DNA of 64,000 bases from Linderina pennispora (Eukaryota; Kickxellomycota; Kickxellomycetes; Kickxellales; Kickxellaceae). Every line of letters starts with the position of its first letter. Position 1 is the stretch's first letter. This document shows, one piece after another, positions 11,211 through 35,263 of this stretch. The stretch is from the NCBI RefSeq assembly GCF_002104995.1, contig NW_024468250.1:992001-1056000 (forward strand), in the 5' to 3' direction. Below the pieces are notes generated by a model. It worked only from the letters and a program-made list of their open reading frames with translations. It was not told where the DNA came from and did not search any database. Position numbers and translations under genes: made by a program.

Positions 11211-12300
11211 TTAGTCCAATATGTACCGATTCTGGTTGCCCATCCTGTCCAGGCTCGGGGTGCTGTGGATGCCCATATACGCTGTGCCTCCAGCAGCGCT
11301 GCTCTCGAGATTGCCGCGGTAGAAACCGCCAATCGCGGTCATGCCCTCAGCGGTATAGTTGGCCGGATTTCCTCGGTCGTACGAGTTGCTGAGCTTCATT
11401 GATGTGTCATGCGCTAGCTGGTACTCACGCGTCATGTTGGACTCGCGCAGCCGCTGTGCAAAGTAGCTCAAGTGCTTCTGACGGTTAAACATGCAGTGGA
11501 AGACGGGCGGCCCCAGGATGACAAAAAAGTACACTTGAGCGACGAGAATGGGCAGCATCGTGTTCAGTGCACCAAAAATGAAGATGCGCTCCGGCGTCAG
11601 CGGAATCCAGGCCGTAGCAATGCCAATAATCAGACAGACGCATGCAACGATGAAGCACCATACGACCTGCCTGTACTCTGAGAAGCACGTGTTGATGTGC
11701 CGCGAGTAAAAGAGGACGAAAATGAAGGCCAGCATCTGGAGGAAGCAGAACGATATGCTCATGTAGAAGAGATTCATGGACCCGTCACAGCCCTTCCGTT
11801 CGGGGACGTATCGTATGCCATTCTCTTCTGGCAGCGCGATTGAGACGATGCCGTAGACGAGAGGAATCGAGACCATGTAGATCATCGGATACCAAAAGTA
11901 CTTGCCCTTGACTCGCTGCTTCCAGATAAAAATGCTGATATACTGGTACAGCCTGGCCTGGAACAGAGACATCCACAGGTAGCCACCCAGGCACATCCGC
12001 AGCCACGAGTTGGCTGCGACACATGTAACCCTGTTATACTTGGGCAGCGTGAAGAACGTGTAGATGTCGCCAAAGTACCACAGCACTGAGGATATAAAGG
12101 TGTATATCATTAGCGGGATGTTTTTGGCCTTCAACGGAAGATACGAGCGGTTGGCGTAGGCGTAGACCTAGGATGAGAAAGTCGATGAAGAGGCACCCTG
12201 CAGCCGCACAAATAACATAGATCTCACGTGGGGTTGGAAGCGACACAGGTGCAGCCACAGGTGCAGCCACACTGGTTGGCATAGGCGCAAGCGAGGACAT
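11211..12300 (-). CDS. Array 7TM receptor-like protein 1
   Basis: One insertion (CCTAGGTCTAC near 12168) separates the first membrane segment from the rest; corrected length 362 residues from the ATG at 12300. A proline/alanine-rich N-terminus (VAAPVAAPVSLPTP) precedes seven hydrophobic segments. Array-wide features are present: a short loop after TM1 with YLPLKAKNIP, WYFGDIYTF in TM2, a NSWLRMCLGGYLW motif in TM3, GKYFWYP before TM4, a Cys in the extracellular loop (KGCDGS), FYSRHINTCFSEYRQVV, AWIPLTPERIF and FHCMFNRQKHLSYF after TM7, then the tail motif LRESNMTREYQL. It is probably a surface sensor; the ligand and coupling are unknown. Confidence 0.7.
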
Positions 12301-13880
12301 GCTTACGTATAGTGAGGATATGGTGTATTCGAGCAATGACTAAGAGGCAGTGAGGAATACAGCGGAAATAGGGTGGATTTCGAGATTAATTTACAGTAGA
12401 GTAGGGAGCAAAAATACTAAAGGCAGGGAACGGACTGAACACAAGCTACTGCGCCTTGCACGTCTTCTTATAGAGACAGCCATGTACGCGTATGTAATAA
12501 TTCCCACAGACGACAGAGAACTATACGCCAAAAATAGAACCACTACGGTCCAAAACATTGCCTGTGCATCATGTAGAAAAGAAGGCAGCTGATAGCGAGC
12601 GACGATGGTGCATCCAGGGATCTCCCTGTAGACAGCTTGGCCCGCAGCTATTTCTTTGTACCTTTGTAGACCGCTACCAATTATTGTGACAAACTACAAT
12701 TCCCCGTGTTTAGCAAGTCTCGATCAATTTTCTTCATGAAAATCACTCCCCCGCCAGAGCCCACTCATTTACTTGCACTAAAACCTGACTAGTAGTTGCT
12801 GTTTGTTGAAGAGCCGCACTTTTCAGCAAAACTTCCATGGTTGCAACCACGGCTGCTTAGTAATATAGTCCGTGCTTGGCTTGGCATTGTCACAGCGTCT
12901 GTGCGTGGCGACCATGTCGGAGACCTTGTGAACTGCACCCCACCTGCGCATTCTGCATAAAGCATTGGCGATTGCAACTGGCAGTGAATTCAAAAACGCC
13001 CACGCCCTACCTTTGCAATGTTGAAAATTTAGCCAGTGCTTGGTTTAAAAATAGAATAGGCAAAAAAGGGATTCAGGCGAAGCAGTCCCCGACGGTCATC
13101 GATGCATAATGGTGGGTGGTTTCCCATCAGCTCATTTGCCCCATGCATAAACCTGCGATCAGCAGGACTGGTAGATCACTAATGATTGTGGTGCATGGCC
13201 CAGACCATACATGTGCTGGTTTGCTGCTTACTGATACATGCAGCTGTGGTGGTCGGGAACAAACAAATGCTTCTAAGAAACGCTTACAAAGAGCATCTTC
13301 AATGCACCGAGTTAATCTCCATTCCCCAGACTGCTAACCCCGTGTGCTGCCGGTTGGTTTTTTTTTTTCGAAAACAACCGAGGCAGGATGCACCATCATA
13401 TGCATTTGCACACATGAAGCAGCAACTGCAGTGCAGCTACGCGCTTTTTAGGTCAAAGAATCCGCTCAGCGTCAAGTAGAATCCCTACAAGATGCTTACG
13501 TAAATTGATTGCAAGTGGTCGAAACACGTTGTGATCCTCCAGGCGATGGCAGGCATAAAGTGGCTGTGCGCTATCTGCCAATCAATGGGTGGTGTGTGCC
13601 AGTGAACCTGCTCCAAAGTTACATTGACTGGGGCTGTTGCATCAATCGTCATTATCGCTGTCAATGTTGCTGCCTCTGCTGGAGAATAAGGCCGCAGCAA
13701 TGCACACATCACTTCTTTGCACCAGCATAGCCTTCCATAGCTATTTTTAATATAAACTGTGTGGTTGTTAACACAGTCAGGAAGTGCCACAAAAAATATA
13801 TTTTTGGCACGGTATAGCCGACAGAAATCATACAAGATATGCTAGGGTCCTTGCTTCTCCAGATCAGGATAGACATTTGC
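12301..13880. other. Intergenic, no gene seen
   Basis: About 1.6 kb separating array members 1 and 2, the largest gap within the array. I looked for receptor motifs (YLPLK, RMSLG, NLxxEY) on both strands and found none. AT-rich with scattered short open frames. Confidence 0.4.
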
Positions 13881-14842
13881 CTAGTACACTCGATTGCTGG
13901 GGTAGAACGTATTGCTTGAACCGCTCGTGCTATTGACCTTAGATGCGGTCAGCGGCCGAGGACCGTGGATCTGTGCAGAGTCAGTTGGCTGGCTGCTATC
14001 AGCGCAGTTGTACTCCCATGTCAAGTTGTGTTCAGACATCTTCCGCAAAAAGAAATCCAAATACGCGTTCCGGTTGAACATACAGTGGTAGATTGGCTTT
14101 CCCAGGGTGGTGACAAAGTAGACTTGACACGCCAGCGCAAGGAGGGAGGTTTTCAGTATCCCTAAAATGAGGATGCGCTCAGGCGCCATGGGAATCTAGT
14201 ATGCTGCAATGGCAACAGTCGGCGATAACGATGTCACTGATAAACTAATCATCATCTTGCAGTGCTCGCAAATTGAAGTCCTGATGTTGCGCGAGTAAAA
14301 AAGTACGTATGCGAACACAGTCATCTGGCAAAAGGCCAGTGCCAAGGAGATGTAGAACAACAGAGACGACCCTGGGCACGTCTTGGTTTCCTGATTGAAT
14401 CAAATTCCGCAATTGCGAGGCAGTGCCACACTCACTACAGCGTAGATGATCGGGAGAGCTACAACATAGATGCCTGGGACCCAGTAGCACTTGCCCCGGG
14501 CGCAACAATGCCAGATATAAATATGCAAATATGCCTGTAGAGTCGGTGCTGGAGCAGTACCATGAACAAGTACGCGCTGAGCGACATTCGCAGCCACGAT
14601 GTGGTTACCACACATGCAAACCAGCTGCTAGCCGACCTCACGCCCATATAAGAATAGATGTTACCAATAAACCACAGCGCTGACGTAGCAAATGCTATTA
14701 GAATTAGCGGGAAATCACGCGACTTGATCGGAAGGCGTCCTCTCTGAATGAATGCATAGATGGGGCAGGCAGAATTCAAAATATACACAGCAGCTAGCAC
14801 CCAGACTATAGTCTATCTTTTGATACCATCCGAATCTGCCAT
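13881..14842 (-). pseudogene. Array 7TM receptor 2, decayed
   Basis: Homologous over its whole length to array member 1, from MADSDGIKR at 14842 to the C-terminus NRVY at 13881. It differs from its neighbours by carrying in-frame stops that need no frame change: a TAG right after MADSDGIKR, a TGA after ALPRNCGI (aligned to Arg in member 1) and a TAG before IPMAPERILI (aligned to the conserved Trp of AWIP). A frame change near 14525 is also needed (IFI to WHCCARGKCYW). Conserved landmarks remain: WFIGNIYSYM, TSWLRMSLSAYLF, FYSRNIRTS, YHCMFNR and the tail MSEHNLTWEYNC. The stops look like genuine inactivation. Confidence 0.65.
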
Positions 14843-15698
14843 GAAAACGAACAGCTAAAACCAAGATAGCGATAGATAATATTGTAAATGTGTATAGACT
14901 GTATTGGAGAAGAGCTAGTAATTCAGCAGCAGCAGCAGCTGAATAGGCAAAGGTGGCTTCGTATTTATGATCTTTCAGAGCGTCCACAAAAACTTTAATC
15001 CCGCACGAGGGATAGTCACTGCTTTGTAAAGAAACTATGTAAACACCGACCGCTGGCTCCTGAGCATATCAGCAAAGCTCCCCTGCAGCAGGCCATTGTT
15101 GGAGCGATTGACTTAACAGAGACAGAACCATATACTGTATTAAAATACTGTACCAATTTGCAGTATATTGTCATCGGTGTCGATTGGATGGCAGGAGGCT
15201 TGGGTCTGGAATTGAAATTATACTACTGTGGGCAGTTCTTAGATCCGCAACTGGGGTTTTGATTCGGCCAGTCTGGTAGACCTGCATCCAGTTGCTGAGA
15301 TGGCGGTATTTTGGTTTGGGCAATCAGCTGCTTGATCAGCTAGAGCTCTGACGACTGCTAGGTCAGTGTGTTTAATACAGTGCACCTCTAGATGCACTGC
15401 TTAGTGGCTAGACCATATCGCTGGTACACCACCCATGAGGAAAACCAAAAATAGCCTGAGCATACACAACAGACCTTTGGAGTAGCATCTAGTAGACATG
15501 CAGTCATGCAGCTGTTGGCTGAAACAGCGCTTTTATTCACAACACCACCCACCACTTGGCTCTGTGGCCTGTGATCTGCTTTGTTGGTATTCATTGGCAT
15601 ATTACCAGCGAGAAAGTGATTTCATCACGGGCTGCTGTCACTTGATATAAACCAGGTGTAGAAACCCATGGAACTATGCTTTTTATTCAATGAATGGG
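14843..15698. other. Intergenic, no gene seen
   Basis: No receptor motif or other coding signal found. A short CAG/CTG-rich tract lies near 14925-14940 (alanine or glutamine codons if translated). Confidence 0.4.
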
Positions 15699-16747
15699 CT
15701 AAACTAGTTTACGGATGTACTGGTTGCTGTTGCTGTTGCTGTTTCTGTTGCTAGAGCTGTGTCCCTCGTTGATTTCTTCGAGTGCATGGTATGCGTTGAG
15801 TGCATTTTCCCTCCTATTCGGCCCACCAAGCCAGCTGTGACGGCTGGCAGCTACTGTTGTCGATGTCCTCAGAGTGGAAGTAAGGTTGTCAACCTGACCA
15901 GCAGTTGAGATACTGTACTCTTGCATAAGATTCTGGGTCCGTAGCCGGTGCATAAAGTACTCAACGTATTCATTGGGGTCGACGATCGAATGGTAGATGG
16001 GCTTGCTCAGCAGGACTATCAAATACAACTGGGCGGCGATGAGCATAAAAGAGGTATCCAGCATTCCTTTGTAGAATTTGCTCCCGGTGGTGTTAGGAAT
16101 CCATCTGACAATGATGGATGCAACTGTTGCGGCAACTGTCGTGGAGATGATGATGACAATCTCTCGGAACTCTCGGAAACAGGTGTTGATGTTGCGTGCT
16201 AGATAAGTCAGTGCAATCGCCGAGCAGAGCTCAATCACGATTATGGCTATTGCAAACATGTAAACCGGCGCTTTTGTTACGCAGTCGTTGTTCTCGGGGA
16301 AGTACTCAAAGCCGATGCTGGGTGGAAAGAGTATAGCAGCTACTGTGTATGGCACAATGAGTACGAATACATAAATGGCAGGCCACAGCAGATACCGCCC
16401 AACTGCACGCTGCTTCCAGCGGAAAATGAGCAGATACTGCCAGATTCGGAGCTGGAACAGTGCGACCCAAAGGAATGTCCCGAACGACATGCGCATCCCA
16501 AGCCCACATGACGATACAGATCATTCGGCTCTTTGGCATCCACGTCGAGTTGTTGACACTCACATTGCCGGCCCACCACAGGAACTTGCCCAAAGAATGT
16601 CGCATAGATTAGTGGCAGGTTTTTGGCTTTCAAAGGAGGATAGTTTCTCTTGAAGAAAGTGAAAACCAGGACGAGGAAGTCTATGAATACCACTCCAGCG
16701 GTAGCTATCGAGAATGCCACATCGCGGCTATCAACATTCATCGCCAT
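15699..16747 (-). CDS. Array 7TM receptor-like protein 3
   Basis: The ATG at 16747 (MAMNVDSRDVAF) and two single-G insertions (near 16585 and 16497, both in GGG runs) give 348 residues. Seven hydrophobic segments with the array landmarks: NYPPLKAKNLP after TM1, FLWWAGNVSV in TM2, MRMSFGTFLWVALF in TM3, GRYLLWPA, a loop Cys in NNDCVTKAP, YLARNINTCFREFREIVI, RWIPNTTGSKF, and YHSIVDPNEYVEYFMHRL followed by the tail LRTQNLMQEYSIS. The cytoplasmic tail is Ser/Asn-rich and ends QYIRKLV. It is a predicted plasma-membrane sensor of unknown ligand. Confidence 0.7.
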
Positions 16748-17682
16748 TCGCAAAAAAATGTGCTGTAAAAAAAGACAAGGAGACGAAGATTGATAAACGC
16801 AATACCTGAGCAGTCCAATCGACCCATCGCGATTTCGCCAAGGGATGCATTTATGTACTCCTCTTGCTCACAGGATTGCCAGTATCATTGCAGATAGGGA
16901 TCCCCTCAATTTCACATCAGGCATGGAATGTTCCTCAGTACATGCTAAAAATGGTGTGTTCGAGCAATGTAGATTCCTAAATCATGGTCCGGATATGCCG
17001 CTCAGGCTGGACCGACATGTAGATTACGGCTAATCGGCTTAGCTGCAAAGGACTTTGGTTGGTGATCTGTCCTTTGCCGTCGACGGATAAACCTTTTGGA
17101 ACATATGAGGTCCGCAAGCTTGCTATTTAGATTTACACAGTTGACAAGAACAAAAAAGCGGGTGTGCCTGTCCCATCTATGTGGGCTCCAGTCAGTCAGT
17201 ATTCCTTTCTTGGCCACGGGGCTTCTTGGTGAATCGGTGCATATGGTTGCTACCTTGGATCTGTCTGGTCCGTTGCCGCTGGTAATCACCAGATTATTAT
17301 CAATTTATTTTGCTACTTGGTTAAGTCAGCTCGGTCCATCTCCATTTCGCAGTGGGGCCATATAAATCTGGCAAGACAGTGTAGCGGTCGATGGAAAATT
17401 TCACCGGTTTGCCTAGCTGGTGTCATAGCCAAGGGGGTTATACATATATACATGTATATGATAGCCAGAAGGCAATAGCCGACGAATGCTATCCTAAATG
17501 GGGATACGATGGAACAGGGGACGGTGCTGGCTTAAAATTCGTGCCCACACGGTCATCTGAGAGTACAGCATAGATCAAGTTGGATCTCGATTATGGCGCT
17601 GGTGCCATATGTGTACTGGGTCGGCAGGGGTCGGCTGTCATTATCAATATAACCAAGTGGCAAAGAGCGGCTGCCCTCAACT
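16748..17682. other. Intergenic, no gene seen
   Basis: No coding signal found. A palindromic run with ATATATACATGTATATG lies near 17443-17459. Confidence 0.4.
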
Positions 17683-18210
17683 TCATATACATCCAAAAGG
17701 ACTGTTTTCATGGAGGTACTCAATAAAATGATCAAGATACGCGTCACCATCAACAAAGCAGTGATATGTAGGCTTAAAAGAGGATTATACCGAAATAAAC
17801 TTGGCATGCCACGGCAACAACTGTGGCCGTGGCCATATTTGCCGCAGACTGGTTTTGTTGCAGTTCATGGAGCCAGCGCATGGCCACCGTGAACAGTATG
17901 GTGACGACACCACCGGTAATTCATATTACAATTTCTGCAAACTCGTTATAGCATGATCCGATATCGCGGGCCATATATGCCAGTATTACCGCTACCAGAA
18001 ACTGCAACACCATCAGCACAACAGAGATGACATACAGTGGTCGCTGAACTGAGCATATACCAGTTGTCTGGTCGAAGGTGATTCCGACGCCTTGGGACAT
18101 GATTACAGCCTGGAATAGCATAGCACACAGAGATAATAGCTGCACTCATAACCGCTGCCCACAGATAAAAAGTACAGCGAAAACAGCCATATGATGGAGG
18201 GGTAAAAGGA
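17683..18210 (-). pseudogene. Array 7TM receptor 4, truncated and decayed
   Basis: Only TM4 to the start of the cytoplasmic tail is left; the first three segments are absent because the next gene's 3' end (18354) lies directly upstream. Recognisable pieces are FDQTTGICSVQRPLYVIS, AYMARDIGSCYNEFAEIVI, a TGA, then VVTILFTVAMRWLHELQQNQ, VAVACQVYFGIILF, a TAA, and after a frame change CFVDGDAYLDHFIEYL ending in a TGA at 17683-17685. In-frame stops plus N-terminal loss make a functional product very unlikely. Confidence 0.7.
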
Positions 18211-18353
18211 GGACAAGGATACACTGGAACTATTAATATAAAATGAGGGTTTAGAAAACTTAATTTTAGCACTAACCAGACCGATCGCGAGTACACAGTC
18301 GCTGGGTTCTCTTTTGTACCGTGGACAGCCTGAGAGACAAGACTATCTACATT

Positions 18354-19425
18354 CTAGACAATGCGACGGTCAGGGTAAATCGAGCTTTGCCTTGCTTTCC
18401 ATGAGTCAACCAAGACCATGTGCATCTGCGGGTCTGATTCGTAGATCAGAAAACTGTCAGTGTGGCCAACTTGAGAATCAACTGTGAATGTCGACCGCAG
18501 GGAGGGATCTGTTATCCTTTGTAGAGTGGCTGCTGTTTCTGTCCGCTGTTGATGCTGCTGCTGCTGCTGCTTTTGTTGCTGGCGGGAAATATCGTACTCT
18601 GTCATCAGGTTACTTTCTTTCATCCTGTGTAGCATAAACACCAGGTACTCCTCACGATCTACCAGAGCGTGAAATATCGGGCGGCCTAGCAGCGCAATAA
18701 AGTATATCTGGCATGCAACAAGCAGCAGGCTGGTATTGATGATACCAATCACGACACGCGAATCATCGCCACGTATGATCCACCTAAAGGCGACTGACAG
18801 GCCAACCGAGGTCGACATAGCGACCAGAATCACCACCATCTCGGCAAACTCATTAAACAGCGGCGTCATTTTGCGAGCATGAATAACGAGCGATACCGCG
18901 GCAATCATCTGCAGCGCAATTATTCCGATGCCAGTGTAGTAAATTGGCTGGTTGGCTTCGCATACACCCTGCTCCGCATTGTAATCGAAACCCGTATCTT
19001 GGCGGGAGAGCTGCTGCCGCAATTGCGTATGCCGCAGATAGCGTGGCCATTGTGCATGTCGGTAGGAAGAAGTACCACCCCGTTGGTCGCTGCTTGAAAG
19101 AGAATATCAGTATAAAGTGATACACTCTATAAATGAACAGCCCGACAAACAGGAATCCGCCTAGCGACATGCGAAATATGCCCAGTGTCAGGATGCAGAT
19201 GGCCCGGTTACGCGTAAGAAAGGTGTTATTGTAGCAATAGATTGTGCCGATCATCCAAAATAACATAGCAACGGATGACGCGAATATGTTTGTAAGGTTT
19301 TTCAACTTCAGAGGCAGATAGCTGCGTTGCCTGAACGTGTAAATCAAAAATAGAAAATTCAGGACCATGACGCCAGCGCCGACACCAACTATAATCTTGT
19401 CTCTGCTGTCTGGTACTGTCTTCAT
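18354..19425 (-). CDS. Array 7TM receptor-like protein 5
   Basis: One insertion near 18990 (GGGTTTCGAT) joins two frames into 356 residues starting MKTVPDSRDKIIVG. Seven hydrophobic segments carry the array landmarks: SYLPLKLKNLTNIF, FWMIGTIYCY, FRMSLGGFLFVGLF, TGWYFFLP, loop Cys in EQGVCEANQP, HARKMTPLFNEFAEMVV, RWIIRGDDSR and FHALVDREEYLVFMLHRM, then the tail motif MKESNLMTEYDIS. A polyglutamine/lysine run encoded by CAG-rich repeats (18545-18590) follows, and the protein ends YPDRRIV. Probably functional. Confidence 0.72.
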
Positions 19426-19844
19426 TGGTAAGGGGATCTGGGAAATGCGCTAAGAGAGACAAAATAAGTAAAGTATTTACATGGATAGAAAGCAGAGAAA
19501 AAGCCTTTGCCCTGGCCGTGACTTTGCTGCCCTTTTAAAGCTGGGTGGTGCGGCACTTGGGAAGCTCCCGTGCTCGGAGTCTGAATGGGAGTTGTACGCA
19601 CCTGCAGTTCTCAATTGCCACAAAAAAGAATAGAAGCTGATTCCGAATACGATGTCATCGTTCCAACTCCCCTTTAAACCGCGTTCTGCGAATGAGCTCA
19701 GGAACAAATCACTGCACAGGCATGCAAGGCGGTGTTCACTGTATGCCCGCATGTTTATTGACAGCTTGCTGCCAGAAAGAAAAGACAATTGTTCGGTACC
19801 AAAATAGTGGCTGTGCTATAGCTTGGAATTGGAAAACTAAAAAG
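19426..19844. other. Intergenic, no gene seen
   Basis: A 419-base spacer between array members 5 and 6 with no coding signal; presumably the promoter of member 5. Confidence 0.4.
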
Positions 19845-20925
19845 CTAGACAATTCTGCGATTTGGAAACAGATCCATCTGCCCCATGTTGGCTGTATCCT
19901 CGAGACGCAAGTAGCTTCCGTCAAATCCATTTGAATAGAGGGCAGCCGTGAATACCCTTGGACCTGTAGATGCGATGGTTTGCTGTGAGTTGTTGGCTGT
20001 GGGGTCTGTGACGCAAGCCTGCTGCCGTGCCGGAACACCCGCTGATGCTAATAGTTTCGCCGGCGCCATGCCACCTCTGCGCATACTCCCACTCTCTCCC
20101 TCTCGCATGTGATGCATAAAGTGATCCAGATACCTGTTCTTGTCAACGAGACAGTGGTATAGTGGGCGACCAAGTAGCACTATGAGATAGAACTGACAAA
20201 CTAGCAGGTCAAAAATTGTAGTAACTGTTCCTGAAATGAACTCTCGGTCGTTTGATAGCGGTGCTATGCGAATAACAGTTGCTACAACAGCAGCCATGAA
20301 AATCATGGCGCAGATGCTAACCATCTCCCGTGACTCGTTGAAGAGGCTGTGGATGCGGCGGGTCATGAAAGGTAAGGACCAGAATAACAATTCCTTGAAA
20401 AATAAAATATCCGGTTGCTAGGTACTGCATGGTGTTGCTGGTAATGCATTGGTTTTGTTGCAGGTCGTAGTTGAATCCGTACTGACGAGGTAATGCAGCT
20501 GCTAATATTGCGTAGATAAGTGAGGGAATGGCCATGAAGGCAATTGGCAGCCAAAAGTATTTGCCTGTTGGCCGCATCTTCTTTATGAAAATGAGCCAGA
20601 TGGAGTATGCTCTGAACTGCACGCAGCTAGCAAATACATAGCTTCCTAGGCAGATTCGCAACCAGGCGAACGTTGCGACGCATACCACCCAGTTTTTACT
20701 CACGAACGAGAAGTTGTGGGCATAGAAATCGCCTAGCATCCAGAAAATAATCGCAGCAAAGGAGACAAATATTAACGTCAGGTTTTTGGATTTTAATGGA
20801 AGGTATGTCCGCTGTGTGTATACGTATATGAGAGCGAATAAGTTTAATGCCAACACGCCCGAGCATGTTATAACCACAATGCGGTCCCGGTCATCTGGTA
20901 TAGGCGTAGGTGCGGCAGTGGACAT
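19845..20925 (-). CDS. Array 7TM receptor-like protein 6
   Basis: One inserted T near 20368 (ACCTTTCATG) joins two frames to give 359 residues from MSTAAPTPIPDDRDRIVV. It has seven hydrophobic segments and the array landmarks TYLPLKSKNLTLIF, FWMLGDFYAH, FAWLRICLGSYVF, TGKYFWLP, QNQCITSN (loop Cys), FMTRRIHSLFNESREMV and YHCLVDKNRYLDHFMHHM. The tail diverges from the NLxxEY consensus (MREGESGSMRRGG) but the extreme C-terminus LFPNRRIV matches member 5. Predicted surface sensor. Confidence 0.72.
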
Positions 20926-21780
20926 TGCTTAGTAATGAGATAGTAATGTACAGTAGTGGTGAAGATGAAGGAGCGGGAATGAAAGTGAAAAGAAGTTTGC
21001 ACCAGATATTCTTGCCGGATCCAGCTGTATATTAAATACCTGTGTCCTAGGGGTTAAGCAAAAACAGCACTTGGCACTAATTGCCTTTTTGATGCCTCGA
21101 CTGTTTACTATTGTTAGCCCAAGGGGACATGGCGATCGACGGTGGAAATGATGTGCATACCCAGAGGTTTGCACGTCAAGGCGACTTTCCTCGCCATTTT
21201 CCTCAAGAATCTCTCATTTGGAGCTTGCATCGCACAATCCCCCTGGTGTAAATAGATCCGCTTAGCATTGTTCATGCAATTTCGGGCGCAGGTGCACATT
21301 TTTTGCTGGTCGTTTTTCCAAGAGCTACTTCCCAGGTACAAGCGGGGTGCTAGGATATGTGCTGTCTCTCCACGAGGACGCAGTAAAACTCGTCGCACTG
21401 TCACAGGCTGTCGTTATTTGTGCTGTTTTCTCTTTACAAACACTCCTGCACGCCAGTGCTTGTCTTGTGCCCAAATAACGCTGGTGATCTGCTCACAGTT
21501 GGGGGAGACGATCTGATGTGTCTCACTAGAAACACCCACGCACAATGGATTATCAACGTGTCGTAGTGGAGAAAGGTGCAGTGGTGTCTGTATTCCGCAC
21601 AAGAGCAGAGTTTGTACACTTTGGGGTTGCGATACTTTCCAGACGTGCCATCCCCAAACACATCAGGTTTTGCTCATGTCTGTGGTGCATGGGGCTTCCC
21701 ATTACGCACGGCTGTCAAATAGTAGACATTGTTAAAGTACACCGCCACTATTTTAGTGCCAATTTTCGGTGAAAACATGC
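20926..21780. other. Intergenic, no gene seen
   Basis: Roughly 850 bases upstream of array member 6. No coding signal found on either strand. Confidence 0.4.
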
Positions 21781-22650
21781 TTACGAAAACGATATCCGGA
21801 TATACACTTCTAGACTCCGCTGTGGGTCCTGCGCGTGTATCGGGTATGGGCTATTGTGAAAGGCTTCACTGTCCACTTTCGCAAATTTGTCCTGAAACGT
21901 CAGCGCTTGAAGTGCCCTGATCTCGTTGACGGATATGCTGTATTCCTTGGGCCATATTGGTCTGGACCAGTTTCTCGATAAAGGTAGTCAGATACTTGTC
22001 AGGATCTATGAAGCAGCAGTAGAGGGGACGCTCAATAACCATGATGAGGCACATTTGGCACGCAATCACCATCAACAGAATTTTGACTGCACCAATGATG
22101 CTCCCTGGTTCCAGTGTCTTGATTACCCAGCGAAATGCCGCAGACACGATTACTGAGGACGCAATTGCTAGAATGATAACCAAAACCTCTCTGAATTCGT
22201 TAAATAGCGAATTGATATTACGGAGGAGCAGCACCGGCACGAACATGTAGACCATACGGAATATGATAATGACGATTACAAAACAGCATTTAGGAAGCTT
22301 AGCCCACATATATCTTCCTCGGGGTTGTAGTTGAAGCCATGCTTTGGAGATAGGGCAGCTGAAAAGACATCACATGTCATGCACAGTACTGTGAGATACA
22401 CGATAGGCACGATTCTGTATAAACCACCTGGCAGCGAAACTCCATAAAGGTAAGTGCGTGCTCGTAAACACGCATAAGAGAGGCGCCAACGAAGACGAAC
22501 CCATCCAGCGACATGCGGAATATATCAAACATAAAGGTACAAATAGCGTGGCTTCGCTTCATGTATGAGCCGTTGTTAATCTCGATGTTTCCGACTAACC
22601 AAAAGGCCATTCCGATGTATGACACAGATATAAGGGTCAGGTTGTTTGAT
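21781..22650 (-). pseudogene. Array 7TM receptor 7, lacking the first membrane segment
   Basis: Homology begins at the loop after TM1 (LIKSNNLTLISVSYIGMAFW) and runs to the tail EYSISVNEIRALQALTF, ending at the TAA at 21781-21783. Landmarks kept: FWLVGNIEIN, FRMSLDGFVFVG, FNYNPEEDIC with the loop Cys, LLRNINSLFNEFREVL, FRWVIKTLEPG and CCFIDPDKYLTTFIEKL. The sequence before the loop is the 3' end of member 8, so TM1 and the start codon are missing. At least three frame changes are needed. It most likely arose by a truncating event during array expansion; an unusual short protein is less likely. Confidence 0.55.
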
Positions 22651-23664
22651 TTAATCAAGTGAAATATGAGACAGGTTTCTATGTGTTTCCTTTGACATGC
22701 TTGCAGGGGCATGTGCTTCTGCTGGCAAGTTCAGCGTTGATCCGGAAAAGTTCAGACGCACAGCATCTTCCGATCCATACGATGTTGTGAAACTGAACCG
22801 GAGCGAACTTCCGGTATCGCAGTCTTCCGCGTCATACTTGTTCCAGAGATCGGTCTTGACAAGCTTGTGCATAAACCGCTTGTGGTACTCTTCACGGTCA
22901 AAGATCGAGTAATAGGCAGGTGGACCGAGAACGATGAGGAAGAAAACATTGCACACGACGACCATCAGCACCATGTTTACAGCCCTTATCCAGAATGCCC
23001 TGTTGTCGCCTACGGTGATCCATTGAGTAGCAATCGAAACTGCCATGAGGGCTGTGATTGTAAAGGTGAGTATGAGCAACTCCTTCGACTCGTTGAAGCA
23101 GCTATTGATTCTACGTGCCATAAATGTCAACACAATGATGGCCAGAACCAATATGATAATGATTGCGGTGGCAAAGTAGTATATCAAGCCTCCAGTCTTG
23201 CAGTTTGCGGAGGCTTCGTCGTAGCTGAACCCGTGAGCATCAGAAAGCGCCATGGCAACTAGTGCATATGTGAAGGAGGCAACTACTAAGCTGCCAGTAA
23301 GCCACCAAAAGTACCTGCCTACTGGTCTCCGCTCCCACTTGAAGATGCATACAAGTGAGTACACGCGGTACAAGAACACACCGAGTGTCAAAAATACCCC
23401 CAGGCTCATCCGGATCCAGGCGAAGTAAACGACACAAGAGAATAAATTAAAATTGAACAGCGACGGGGCATTGAATGCAGTGTTCCCAATAAACCAAAAG
23501 ACTGCTCCGACATATGCCAGATAGATGCTTGGCAGGTGCTTTACTTTCAATGGCAGGTACTTTCGGTTAAGGTGAACATAGATTATCAAAGCCAGGTCCA
23601 GCGCGAGCACCACGGCGCAGCAGCTGACCAGAGCGATCTCCTGCCCCTTGGGCTTGTACGGCAT
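22651..23664 (-). CDS. Array 7TM receptor-like protein 8 (intact reference copy)
   Basis: The only unbroken single-exon member, 337 residues from the ATG at 23664. Seven segments: about 9-31, 42-62, 70-100, 115-138, 154-180, 190-211 and 218-250. Landmarks: YLPLKVKHLPSIY, FWFIGNTAFN, FAWIRMSLGVFLTLG, VGRYFWW, loop Cys in ASANCKTGG, FMARRINSCFNESKELL, TQWITVGDNRAF and YYSIFDREEYHKRFMHKL. The N-terminus is short and outside, the C-terminal tail of about 85 residues is inside. There is no RGS domain, but the helix order and several loop positions match the 7TM half of the two RGS-bearing receptors in this window. Ligand unknown. Confidence 0.8.
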   Translation of the reverse strand: MPYKPKGQEIALVSCCAVVLALDLALIIYVHLNRKYLPLKVKHLPSIYLAYVGAVFWFIGNTAFNAPSLFNFNLFSCVVYFAWIRMSLGVFLTLGVFLYRVYSLVCIFKWERRPVGRYFWWLTGSLVVASFTYALVAMALSDAHGFSYDEASANCKTGGLIYYFATAIIIILVLAIIVLTFMARRINSCFNESKELLILTFTITALMAVSIATQWITVGDNRAFWIRAVNMVLMVVVCNVFFLIVLGPPAYYSIFDREEYHKRFMHKLVKTDLWNKYDAEDCDTGSSLRFSFTTSYGSEDAVRLNFSGSTLNLPAEAHAPASMSKETHRNLSHISLD

Positions 23665-24094
23665 GGTGGGTGAGGTATGCTTTAGTGTAAGAGTATGCAA
23701 TGAAAAATGGACAGATGAGGATTGAGGAACAGAAACAAGACTTGCTGCTCGAGGTGGGCAGGTACCGGTGGGTATATAGGAATTCTGCTGGCCTCCCCAG
23801 CCCGCCAAGCTCTACTCAATGAGAGGAAATGCATACGAGGGCTATCCGCTGCCCGGACGTATGCATGACGCGAGGATATTTTTAAATCCAAAAGGATCGA
23901 CAGGTATCCCAAGGAGTTTCTTTGCAGGCACAAAGAAGCTTTTCTGCTCGTTCGGTTTCTGAGCGCAAAAACTGGCTTGGATAGCTTGTCAAAGATAGTA
24001 CTATAGTTTTATTTTTAAATTTGCCAATTTGGACAGACGTGTATGCACTACATGCGGGAAATAGTATGTACAGAAAGGGAAGGGGAATCTAGGT
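23665..24094. other. Intergenic, no gene seen
   Basis: Promoter side of array member 8. A TATATAGGA-like motif near 23773-23781 (plus strand) is the only element noticed. Confidence 0.4.
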
Positions 24095-25217
24095 TTAAAC
24101 GAGCGCCCTGGGCGGGTGCTGAATTTTTAACACGCTATCATCGACGATTAGGTCCGGGCTGTTTTCATAATAATAGTACTCGTCGTACATCTCAGCTTCA
24201 GGAGTCCGTCCGATCATGGCTAGTGCTCCAGCGCTGCATCTGTGCACCGTTCGCAATCTCATACACCGACTCGTTGTTCTCACGACGCAGCTTCTTCAAG
24301 AAGAAGCGCAAGTATGCCTCTCTGTTCACCAGGCAATGGAAAGGTCGGCTTTGAGACCAAGAAGTAAAAATTGACCTGGCACACGATAAAGTCGGTCAGC
24401 GTGACCAGTGTGTTGTATGCGAACTCGTTGCCCGAGATATTCGGCACCCAGCGCAAAATGACCTGCACCAAAATGGCAATGATGGTGACAAAGAACGTGG
24501 CCAGCAGCTCTCTGAACTCATTAAACGACGACTGGATGTCGCGCGCCATATAAGTGAATACTGCACACACAACCAGCAGCGAGATTAGCACGGCCACCTG
24601 CGAAAAAGTAGATTGGGTTTGTTGGCCTTGCATATCATTGTGTCTTCGACATACTGGATGCCCTTCTCTTCGGGAAGCACAGTGGCGAGAATCCCGTACA
24701 GCAAGCAGACAGTTGCCATGGTGGCAAGTGGGATCCAGAGGTAGCGACCAGTGGCACGGATTTTGTACTCAAAAATGCAAATATACTCAAAGGTGCGGAA
24801 AATGAGCAGGCACACAACGGCAAACATTCCGAGCGACATGCGCAGCCACGAGATTGTCGCAATGCAGATGGCCCATGACGTGTGTGTCAGGGACGGGATG
24901 GTTTGCAAAGACATCGCCCACAAACCATAGCACCATACCTAAGAGTGCCAAGAGGAAAAACATGCATATTAGCACCCATCTCGTTGATTTCTTGCACTTA
25001 ATTCCATACACAGCCATTGGGTTTTTTCCTACAAAGTAGGCTTTTGCAAATAGACTTACTAAGAAACGATAGGTTAAGCAGCGGGATATTTTTGCACTTC
25101 AGTGGTGTATACGAGCGGTTGTAATTGATAAAAATGAGGACCATGAAGCTGAAAAAGCAGCATAGTTGAGCAGGCGGCAACTACTGCGACATCCCGCGTA
25201 TCGGCAACCTCTGGCAT
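24095..25217 (-). CDS. Array 7TM receptor-like protein 9 (with intron)
   Basis: Starts at the ATG at 25217 (MPEVADTRDVAVVAA). A 121-base intron (24939-25059) interrupts the TM2 region between NLSFLS and MVLWFVGDVF. Four insertions and one deletion must be counted; the spliced, corrected length is 332 residues. Landmarks: SYTPLKCKNIP, SWLRMSLGMFAVV, TGRYLWIP, a loop Cys, YMARDIQSSFNEFREL, RWVPNISGNEF and FHCLVNREAYLRFFLKKL. The tail has a tyrosine/acid cluster (EMYDEYYYYEN) and ends PPRALV. It is the most upstream member and the only one with an intron at this site. Confidence 0.68.
24939..25059 (-). other. Spliceosomal intron in array member 9
   Basis: On the minus strand the donor is GTAAGT and the acceptor CTCTTAG, with a GCTAAT branch-like sequence about 30 bases before the acceptor. 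Splicing joins codons to read FLSMVLWFVGDV, which matches the TM2 pattern of the intronless paralogs. Confidence 0.75.
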
Positions 25218-27196: not shown

Positions 27197-28288
27197 CTAG
27201 AGCCGCGGGCAATCGCTGGGCCGAGTCAGTCCATTGGCGATCTGAAGGACTTGCCTGGCAAAGCCAGCACTAGACTGGTAGCCGAAGCCGGCATGGCCGT
27301 AGCAGTGAATGGCAGTGAAGGCACCGCCAAAGTCCTCAACCTCGAGCCTCACACCACCCACACGCGCTGGGCGGAAGCCGACATTGACAGAGACAATACT
27401 CCGCCGCAGAAGCTCGGTCCGCTGCTCGAAGCTCAACCCGCTGCTTCCCGGAACAAGATCGGACTCGAGTGCCAGCGCCTTCTCAAGAATTGCCTGCGTC
27501 GTTTCGTCATGCGCCGATGCATCCCAGCTCCCCCGGTCAGCCGTGCCACCGATGACTACTGTGCCATCGCCGCGAGGAATCACATAGCCAAAGACCTTAC
27601 CGATGCGAGTCAGCGTGCGCTTGGCCAGTGGGAGCGTCAACTACCAATGTCTGTCCACGGATCGGGTACATGTTCTGGTCATTGACGCCGCCGAGGCTGC
27701 GGCTGCCCAGCGCCGTGCAGTTAATCACCAGTGGTGGGTCTGTACGAGTCTGTGCGAAGAGTAGTGCCTCTCTGATGTGGTCTAGACGACTTTGGATGAC
27801 ACGTCCGCCCAGGCTCTCGAACTGCGCTTTGAGGTAGCTCAAATAATGTGGTACGTTAATCAGCAGGGTCGAATATTTTAGTCCATAGGCAACCCCCTCT
27901 GGCAGCTCGCTTTTGCGCAGCTCTTGGACATCATCAACTTTTGTCGCATACCACAAAGCCGTTGGACGGGTTTGTCTTCGAATAGGTCGACCCCCTCGGT
28001 CTCAGATATGCCGCTCTCGGGTGCTGTTCGCGCCAGCCGCTGCATCTCGCGATATGTCTCCAACTCCATATCCTGCAGCAGCGTGTCCTTATCGCCAGCC
28101 CATGCCCGCCAGTGCGCCCCAGCCCATGGCGACGCCCATCCTGTGGACTCGCGTTGACCTACTGACTTGTGTTGCGGGATGTGTTCAGCGACGATGGTTA
28201 CGTCGAATGCACCCGATTCCTGGAGTCGGTTTGATACCGTCAGGCCGATCACGCCGGCACCAATAACCACCACTTCGCGCTTTGCCAT
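27197..28288 (-). CDS. D-amino-acid oxidase family FAD enzyme (copy 1)
   Basis: Oxidises D-amino acids to 2-oxo acids, ammonia and peroxide. The N-terminal Rossmann motif is VVVIGAGVIGLTVSNRL, followed by GWASPWAGAHWRAW, where family members contact the flavin. Later motifs: VINCTALGSRSLGG, YPIRGQTLVVDAP, YVIPRGDGTVVIGGT with the substrate-binding Arg/Tyr region, and HCYGHAGFGYQSSAG near the end. One deletion (near 27955) and one insertion (near 27625) leave 363 residues. The last three residues are PRL, at best a weak peroxisomal signal, unlike the AKL of copy 2 at 54.4 kb. D-aspartate oxidase is an alternative. Confidence 0.85.
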
Positions 28289-28783
28289 GATCCAGTAGAG
28301 TGTGTCTTGGATGTCTGGAGTGGAGACGAAAAGTGTGGGACGGCGGAAACAGCGGGTGCTTTCGGCGCATCCTGGTCATGCCAACTAGCCTTAATTGCAT
28401 TTCCAAATCCAAGTCCGGATCAACGCCAGGTTGGATATTGCTGCATGTTGCTGTTTACAACGTGCATGTCGCTTCTTTGGCGAGAATTGATTACCGACCA
28501 GCTGCAGCTTTCTATGCTGGACCACCGACCAGAGCCAGACCGCTTGGGCTGCATTGGGGAAGACCATTGTTGACCTGGGCGTGCTGAACCCGAGGATCTA
28601 CGCTGGCCTGATTTCCAAGATTATTTATGGCAGACTGAATGCTATGTCTGCTTATCAGCAAAGGAGACACCCCAGGAGCAACAGCACAAGAGCCAAGGGT
28701 ATCCCTAAGGCCATGGAGGCGGTTGCGACTATTATACTCTTTCAGCCCCCCTCTTCCATCCCTACCCATCTATTCTGCTAACC
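28289..28783. other. Divergent promoter region, no gene seen
   Basis: Lies between the D-amino-acid oxidase start and the first GPI-type surface protein. No coding signal found. Confidence 0.45.
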
Positions 28784-33538: not shown

Positions 33539-35263
33539 CTAGCGGGTTCGCTGATAGCGTGTAAACACGTCAGTGTACAGCATAAACAGCACCTCGTCCT
33601 TCACCTCGTCGAGGATGGGCAGCGACATCTGCTTGCGGTCGAGCTGGTCCTGGATCTTGCGTACCATGACTGAGGGAACATTGAGCGCCATGTACGAGTT
33701 GAGGTTGAGGTAAATAGAGAATATGCGCACCAGCCGATCGAGAACCGTAGTGGGGAACTGCGTGTTCTCGGCGAACTCGTGCTGTGGGTACGCAGCCTTA
33801 GCTGTTTCGAGGATGCTGACCGATATACCGGTGCTGAGGGTCAGCGGCTTGGCCTTTGATGCCGTTTTGTTGTATGCGAATTGCTGCGGATGGACCGACA
33901 CATCGCCGTAAAAATCGCCGTTGGGACTGTCAAGCGAAAGTGACGAACGCCAGCTGCTGCTGGTCTCTAGTATCGGGCTGTCAGCATTGCCCAGGGCGGT
34001 GACGGTCTTGGTCTTTAGCGACTGGTACTCGTCAATGAAGGCGGTTAGCTCTGAACAGAAGCACGAGGCGGCGAACTCGCGGAACGTCTCATATTCGTAC
34101 GGGTCATCAAGCACCCGATTGAAGTCTGAGCGACGTATCTTGGTAGCGCCGCGATCGTTAGCGTGCACAGAATCGCTGTCGGAGCTGCTTGCAGTTGAGT
34201 GGCGGTTTCTGATCTGATGCTTGGTACGCTTCGAGTGGCCGATGGCCTTGATCAGCGGCACGACGACTGACGAGATGTGGATGAGTAGCATGGCCACCCA
34301 GACAAAGAACAGGCAAGACCAGATCGACGAAACCTGGTGGAGTCCAAACTCCCAGATGAAGGCGACTGCCAAGCACACAATGCCGACTGTATCGCAGATA
34401 AGCAGATCTCTGCGAATACCGTAGGCATCCTTGAGCCCCCAAACCTGCCATAGCAGAATAGGGAAGACGATGAGGAGGTACACACCAATCAGGATTGTCA
34501 CGGGGATGAGCTCCCAATACATCGAGCAGGCGATTGGTGACCGGCTTGATTGTGTAGTCCTTACTGATGGCATTGATGGCGGCGGAGACGGCAATGGCGA
34601 CACTGGTTGCAATGGCGATGAATATGATCATCCTGCGGTCGGTAACGTGGTGGCGGCGCCTGATGTATTTTTTGAGCTCAGCTTGGATTTCTTGCTGTGT
34701 CTTGGAGGCCCCGTGCGACATTTTGGCAAACCCGCTTTGGCCGACTGCGCTCATGCCGTGCCACTCTGCTGGTTCCAAGTCGTTTACGTTGATTCCGTAG
34801 AGCTTCCCCTCGGCGGCTGACGAGATGTGTCCGTCAAGCCCAGGCACCTCTGTGTACTCGAAAATGTCCTCGTAGTGCACCTGTCCAGTGAGCGAGTGGA
34901 TCTTCGAGATGATTATTAGCTGCATCGCTCTGGCAGCCAGGGCCGACAGCACAATCGTGAAGCCAATATCGTACAGCCACAGCTTAATGAAGCACGCCCA
35001 CTCGTTAAGCGCCGTACTGACTAGTCCTAGCGTACCAACAATAAAGCAGCCAACGGCCTGGATGGAAACCAGCTTCACCGACCGCTTTGAGAGTTCGCTG
35101 CGAGGATTCCGGGACTGCACCAGGAACATGACAAGTGTGGACAATGACAAACACCGTGTAAACGCCATAGACCTGTGAACATCGATATTTCGCGGGCACG
35201 GTAGTTGCTGGTGCCCGGACGCCAAGAATCAGGGACTTCTGCTATCCTATTAAATCGTAGCAT
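33539..35263 (-). CDS. 7TM receptor with C-terminal RGS domain (second copy)
   Basis: Three insertions (near 35188, 35137 and 34523) return the frame to its origin; corrected length 573 residues from MLRFNRIAEVPDSW. Membrane segments include VYGVYTVFVIVHT, VSIQAVGCFIVGTLGLVS, YDIGFTIVLSALAARAMQLI, MIIFIAIATSVAIAVSAAI, LIPVTILIGVYLLIVFPIL, ICDTVGIVCLAVAFIW and FFVWVAMLLIHISSVVVPLI. The RGS domain carries DPYEYETFREFAASCFCSEL, FIDEYQSLKTKTV, MALNVPS and DEVLFMLYTDVFTRYQ. It likely damps G-alpha signalling in response to an extracellular cue. Same family as 6864-8542. Confidence 0.82.

Follow-up and report, generated by a model that had tools for sequence, protein, structure and literature searches.

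A window of 64,000 nucleotides from the fungus Linderina pennispora (contig NW_024468250.1, positions 992,001–1,056,000) contains, at window positions 11211–25217, an array of nine homologous genes on the minus strand (A to I), all of which match one family profile in a profile-guided reading. Judged from sequence profiles and the predicted fold, the array members are class C (glutamate-family, 7tm_3) G-protein-coupled receptors (GPCRs). We think it probable that the genes form a tandem cluster of class C GPCRs lacking the flytrap in a fungus of the Kickxellomycotina, and that they serve as orphan chemoreceptors with the ligand bound in the seven-transmembrane (7TM) bundle. An earlier sequence-only reading had described nine same-strand homologous genes of a 7TM receptor family, six complete after correction and three decayed, and the profile-guided models bear this out, A, C, E, F, H, and I being full-length after frame correction and B, D, and G decayed. 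The shared motifs that it listed (YLPLKxKN, RMSLG, G[RK]YFW, a loop Cys, RxIxxxFxExxE, and a stretch after TM7, the last transmembrane helix) are present, with variation between copies. Its description of the family as uncharacterised stands only for the ligand, none having been found described; the superfamily is a known one, already reported in early-diverging fungi. Beyond that reading, the family proved to be genome-wide, and many of the breaks in the array genes are probably assembly errors.

Class C assignment and absence of a flytrap domain

Gene H scored 37.9 bits against the Pfam family 7tm_3 (PF00003; curated cut-off, 33.5), and the remaining array members each fell below the cut-off when scored singly. 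In the whole family, 17 of 32 scanned members match 7tm_3 at E ≤ 0.001, and nine of the 20 matches in the genome are above the cut-off, one of the nine with its neighbours in frame. When the family profile was compared with the Protein Data Bank (PDB), metabotropic glutamate (mGlu) and calcium-sensing (CaSR) receptors came first, the best matches being mGlu4, 6, 7, and 8 (E, 1.8e-5 to 0.0019, best of each). The AlphaFold2 model of H (mean predicted local distance difference test, pLDDT, 73.6; predicted template modelling score, pTM, 0.71) has seven helices (residues 7–32, 44–65, 74–108, 117–139, 159–183, 192–215, and 223–255), which together with the class C matches supports the earlier assignment to 7TM receptors. 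In a Foldseek search, ranks 1–29 were all class C, with the 7TM domains of GPR156 and the GABA-B receptor at ranks 1–6. Class C leads both fold comparisons, and class A chains score just below. The fold alone cannot separate the family from class A receptors or microbial rhodopsins; by sequence profile, class C comes out ahead, with one rhodopsin row at E 5.3.

Single residues agree with this assignment. A Cys at the top of TM3 and another in extracellular loop 2 are nearly invariant among the family rows (Cys77, 44/45; Cys155, 46/47). The conserved stretch that follows TM5 corresponds in the alignment to R-x-x-x-x-FNE, the loop-3 motif of class C, in which Phe190 (41/47), Asn191 (35/47), and Glu192 (43/47) are kept and aligned with mGlu. 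A transporter or enzyme family, which would have spoken against a receptor array, did not appear, since none of the 32 scanned members has such a Pfam match at E ≤ 0.001. DUF7536 matched H only, weakly and below its cut-off (E, 5e-4), and no other member of the 32-member scan; it was not used. None of the 32 members matched the pheromone-receptor family STE3 (PF02076).

The Venus-flytrap domain (ANF_receptor, PF01094) has no match in the genome by an intron-blind search, which gave matches in seven of 14 control genomes. The full array members have approximately 0.4 to 1.6 kb of upstream space (~430 bases for H), and only A, with ~1.6 kb, has room for such a domain. In most family frames the part ahead of TM1 is short, ranging from a few residues to some tens. 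In many non-window family members, a short D-P-[IV]-G-x-x-D stretch lies just ahead of TM1; it was not seen in H.

Genome-wide family and conservation pattern

A search of the genome (26.17 Mb, 222 contigs) with H gave 67 matching stretches. There are 41 non-identical open frames with long matches, alleles included, and their median pairwise identity is 22%. The assembly, from strain ATCC 12442, is described in the cited part of PMC6757388 as a PacBio assembly, likely diploid, with 24.72% allelic models, and raw family counts therefore include alleles. For the family tree, we took 68 stretches (nine from the window and 59 others) and two proteins of other species; six short rows were dropped and 15 were collapsed at >93% identity, leaving 49 rows, namely the nine window genes, 38 other loci (intact and broken), and the two foreign proteins. 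The family thus has ~47 non-allelic loci, intact and broken ones counted. Among the 49 rows, the nine window genes and protein P0004 of L. macrospora form one clade with 100/100 support, so that the homology of the nine genes is not due to chance.

Relatives of single members occur outside the species. P0004 is the partner of H (72% identity over 173 amino acids), and A is related to Martensiomyces P0006 (53% over 306) and L. macrospora P0011 (77% over 114), A, B, P0006, and P0011 grouping at 99/99 in the tree. I is joined by Coemansia P0008 with 84/83 support, on a branch without a star. Because A and I have relatives in other genera, the split between them appears to be older than Linderina, Martensiomyces, and Coemansia. 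These relationships, together with the low pairwise identity, indicate old duplications within the array, in agreement with the high divergence and old duplications proposed earlier. A single-protein search with H found only H itself among 2308 candidates; family profile searches matched four proteins, P0002 of L. pennispora (DL89DRAFT_316814) being one of them, and seven proteins, among only 7997 candidates scored each time.

Further clusters of the family were observed on contig C135 (loci L014 and L017) and on contigs C168 and C77 (L028/L029 and L031/L032), some of them inverted or near-identical (allelic). The window itself has a further class-C-like gene (33542–35228, minus strand) in two overlapping frames; its 7tm_3-like helices score 28.8 bits, which is under the cut-off, and its RGS domain scores 29.8 bits, which passes the RGS cut-off. 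By eye only, frames resembling this gene were seen at L046 (two), L047/L048 (near-identical), and L049; in the genome-wide RGS search, contig C79 is listed beside L049, and L046 and L047/L048 are not among the matches listed.

Conservation, measured as the mean frequency of the commonest residue per segment, is highest in intracellular loops 1 (0.67) and 3 (0.58), followed by the TM7 end together with helix 8 (0.47) and by intracellular loop 2 (0.45). The variable segments are extracellular loops 1–3 (0.39, 0.37, and 0.34), TM4–TM7 (0.32 to 0.34), and the C-terminal tail (0.27, the lowest). This pattern, read from the alignment, agrees with constancy on the transducer side and variety on the sensing side; cytoplasmic loops 1 and 3 are less variable than the extracellular loops, which supports the earlier comparison with chemoreceptor clusters. 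Besides the FNE residue Glu192, Arg100 (45/45) is aligned with its counterpart in mGlu; the aligned mGlu residues are those that form the cytoplasmic TM3–TM6 contact of class C receptors.

The tail, variable as it is, often ends in the same way. An exact R-x-phi-phi-COOH end was found in 19 of 42 non-redundant readable tails versus four of 430 stop-bounded control open reading frames, most of which are probably not genes. The count omits B, D, and G of the window and loci L041 and L050, and includes I by way of the frame shown by P0010, a protein from another L. pennispora record of this gene (18 otherwise). The end is missing from the other 23 tails, that of H included, and A, ending in R-Y-I-L-D with one extra residue, was not counted. 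The codons of this end differ among members, which points to selection on the protein, and its distribution needs at least ten changes on the family tree. It is shared by P0006 of Martensiomyces (RNIV) and P0008 of Coemansia (RMLV), and not by Martensiomyces P0003 (SHIL). The third residue from the end varies widely (Y, R, H, Q, L, I, F, K, and A), which does not suit the usual PDZ ligand classes. A role as a PDZ ligand is still conceivable, and the genome has five PDZ matches, each exceeding the cut-off (best E, 7.4e-6). Alternatively, the end could be a COPII export signal of the hydrophobic-pair kind. The contrast between conserved cytoplasmic loops 1 and 3 and varying extracellular loops, and the R-x-phi-phi end, are new here.

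Gene models and frame breaks

The models of the nine genes are collected in Table 1. The public model of A, P0005, is 100% identical to A and skips part of TM1; the gap is probably caused by the frame break at that place, and the GenBank model thus seems to be without one helix. Its UniRef name reads 'G-protein coupled receptors' (incomplete in the table).

Table 1. Genes of the receptor array, in window coordinates
Gene	Position	Strand	Model
A	11211..12300	-	full-length class C 7TM receptor; a single break in the frame close to TM1; most of TM1 missing from GenBank model DL89DRAFT_265228 (P0005)
B	13881..14812	-	decayed; sister of A; two in-frame stops and one frame break
C	15699..16747	-	full-length once frame-corrected; three modelled breaks (tail one unsure); C-terminus R-x-phi-phi
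D	17664..18170	-	decayed 3' part, TM4 onward; no TM1–TM3; one stop, three frame breaks
E	18354..19425	-	full-length; one frame break; C-terminus R-x-phi-phi
F	19845..20925	-	full-length; one frame break; C-terminus R-x-phi-phi
G	21863..22655	-	decayed; TM1 missing; three frame breaks; homology starts at the stop of H
H	22651..23664	-	intact, single exon, class C 7TM receptor, 337 amino acids (337-codon open frame)
I	24095..25217	-	full-length; four modelled breaks; one likely GT-AG intron (24939-25059)

These breaks raise the alternative that the array is mostly dead, a dying cluster with only H still working. Three observations weigh against a functional array in this respect. Of the nine window members, eight carry at least one frame break, as against 13 among the 59 family stretches outside the window; decay is genuine in B, D, and G; and in two of three allele comparisons made elsewhere, each over 500 bases or more, the differences are not mainly insertions (extra versus missing bases, 3 to 5 and 7 to 9). 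An insertion signature is therefore not assembly-wide, and was rejected as a general mark of the assembly, only the third comparison being insertion-dominated (12 to 2). This third comparison concerns a family copy close to where the small contig C77 begins; 11 of its 12 insertions add a single base within a run, and there are two deletions, the same signature as in the window, where 13 breaks are of the extra-base and four of the missing-base type.

Several lines of evidence make us regard a dead array as improbable. Of 13 positions conserved family-wide, each of the six full members retains 12 or more (A, C, H, and I, 13/13; E, 12/13), or in F all 12 covered, and none has an in-frame stop; at the same positions, B changes four and G one or two of 11 covered, and most are missing from D. 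A partial protein from another L. pennispora record (P0010; locus tag EC988), 97–98% identical to I in segments of 89 and 34 residues, reads without interruption through the 3' part in which this assembly changes frame, spanning two of the four modelled breaks of I as well as an additional frame change in the tail of I; the remaining two lie outside P0010, and this direct check was made for I only. The relatives P0006 of A and P0008 of I are full-length in other genera. Finally, the adjoining gene of a DAO-type FAD oxidoreductase (27200–28375, minus strand) is cut in the same way, into three overlapping frames that cover consecutive parts of the profile; there is no room for introns between them, and the splits are probably assembly errors. 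Accordingly, assembly errors probably account for many of the breaks in the six full genes as well, strain differences being the alternative. Programmed frameshifting was dropped, as P0010 is open at the breaks of I that it covers and the break sites are varied. On the other side of the array, a cytochrome P450 gene (8781–10218, minus strand) also appears frame-broken by eye, one of its three frames matching p450 and the other two having no Pfam match.

Proposed signalling and comparison with known receptors

In the mechanism that we propose, each full member would consist of a short extracellular N-terminus, seven helices, a cysteine pair placed for a disulphide between TM3 and extracellular loop 2, and a variable cytoplasmic tail. 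Because no extracellular ligand-binding domain was recognised, the 7TM cavity is the likeliest place of ligand entry, unless the receptor signals constitutively. Activation would break the cytoplasmic contact between the invariant TM3 Arg and the FNE Glu, and the active receptor may then engage one of a few G-alpha subunits, the genes of which are present in the genome. The tail end common to about half of the family could recruit a common trafficking or adaptor factor. The family probably senses small molecules, and a mating factor, a nutrient, or a cell-contact cue are conceivable signals for the array. A more far-reaching proposal, which we put forward as speculative and rather doubtful, is that Kickxellomycotina evolved compact flytrap-less class C chemoreceptors that bind ligand in the 7TM core and largely carry an R-x-phi-phi-COOH tag that a single trafficking or scaffold protein recognises; such a repertoire would parallel the odorant receptor arrays of animals, but on another GPCR class.

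Two other views of the ligand overlap with orphan chemoreception. The genes might encode ligand-independent class C receptors that set a basal G-protein tone and are diversified by expression stage rather than by ligand. The lack of a recognised extracellular domain, the top Foldseek match to GPR156, which signals constitutively, and the tail being the most variable segment would all suit such receptors; varied extracellular loops and TM4–TM7 together with conserved cytoplasmic loops 1 and 3 fit varied ligands better, albeit not decisively, and we give ligand independence only a small chance. As a special case of chemoreception, the genes could be mating-pheromone receptors for carotenoid-derived or similar signals, as the candidate trisporic acid receptors of Rhizopus, class C GPCRs that the cited part of PMC5705715 describes as upregulated in mating; STE3 has no match in the genome, which would suit this view, though no control genome gave one either. 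Nine plus 38 diverged loci are many for one pheromone, and we hold this case to be quite unlikely.

Taking the array again as flytrap-less chemoreceptors, the ~47 stripped-down non-allelic loci in Linderina, a non-flagellated fungus, would provide a natural test of class C receptors without a flytrap. They would also supply orphan receptors for work on how fungi sense chemicals, and their conserved tail end offers a specific feature by which a common partner could be sought. No description of a compact Kickxellomycotina class C expansion was among the matches listed in a literature search, no literature combining L. pennispora with GPCR was found, and Linderina receptors are not named in the cited parts of PMC12842992, PMC8778642, PMC10406608, and PMC12716839.

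Class C receptors are known from early-diverging fungi. The portions of the sources cited here give 96 in four early-diverging species (PMC3251606), with 78 in Allomyces macrogynus and 14 in S. punctatus (PMC3251606, PMC5168858), and approximately 100 in three gut fungi taken together, where the N-terminal domains are large (PMC5168858). A 2025 classification, in the part cited, has 918 fungal glutamate-class sequences, enriched in the flagellated Chytridiomycota and Blastocladiomycota (PMC12842992). As far as these portions describe them, the early-diverging sets resemble the Linderina family in being large, diverged 7tm_3 expansions (PMC3251606, PMC5168858), but usually have large N-termini (497 residues on average; ANF and, in gut fungi, pectin-lyase-like or sugar-binding), unlike the Linderina frames. 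The Rhizopus microsporus candidates are, like the array, class C GPCRs of non-Dikarya fungi; they are three mating-induced genes of Mucoromycotina, set beside the array by their description alone in the cited part of PMC5705715. The mGlu receptors have the FNE loop-3 motif and the basic TM3 residue in common with the array. They also have a flytrap and a cysteine-rich domain, neither of which was found in the Linderina family. In its predicted fold, the array is like the 7TM domains of GPR156 and the GABA-B receptor, with an identity of only 12–14%; the GABA-B receptor carries a flytrap, whereas the GPR156 chains (269–317 residues) are essentially 7TM only, as here.
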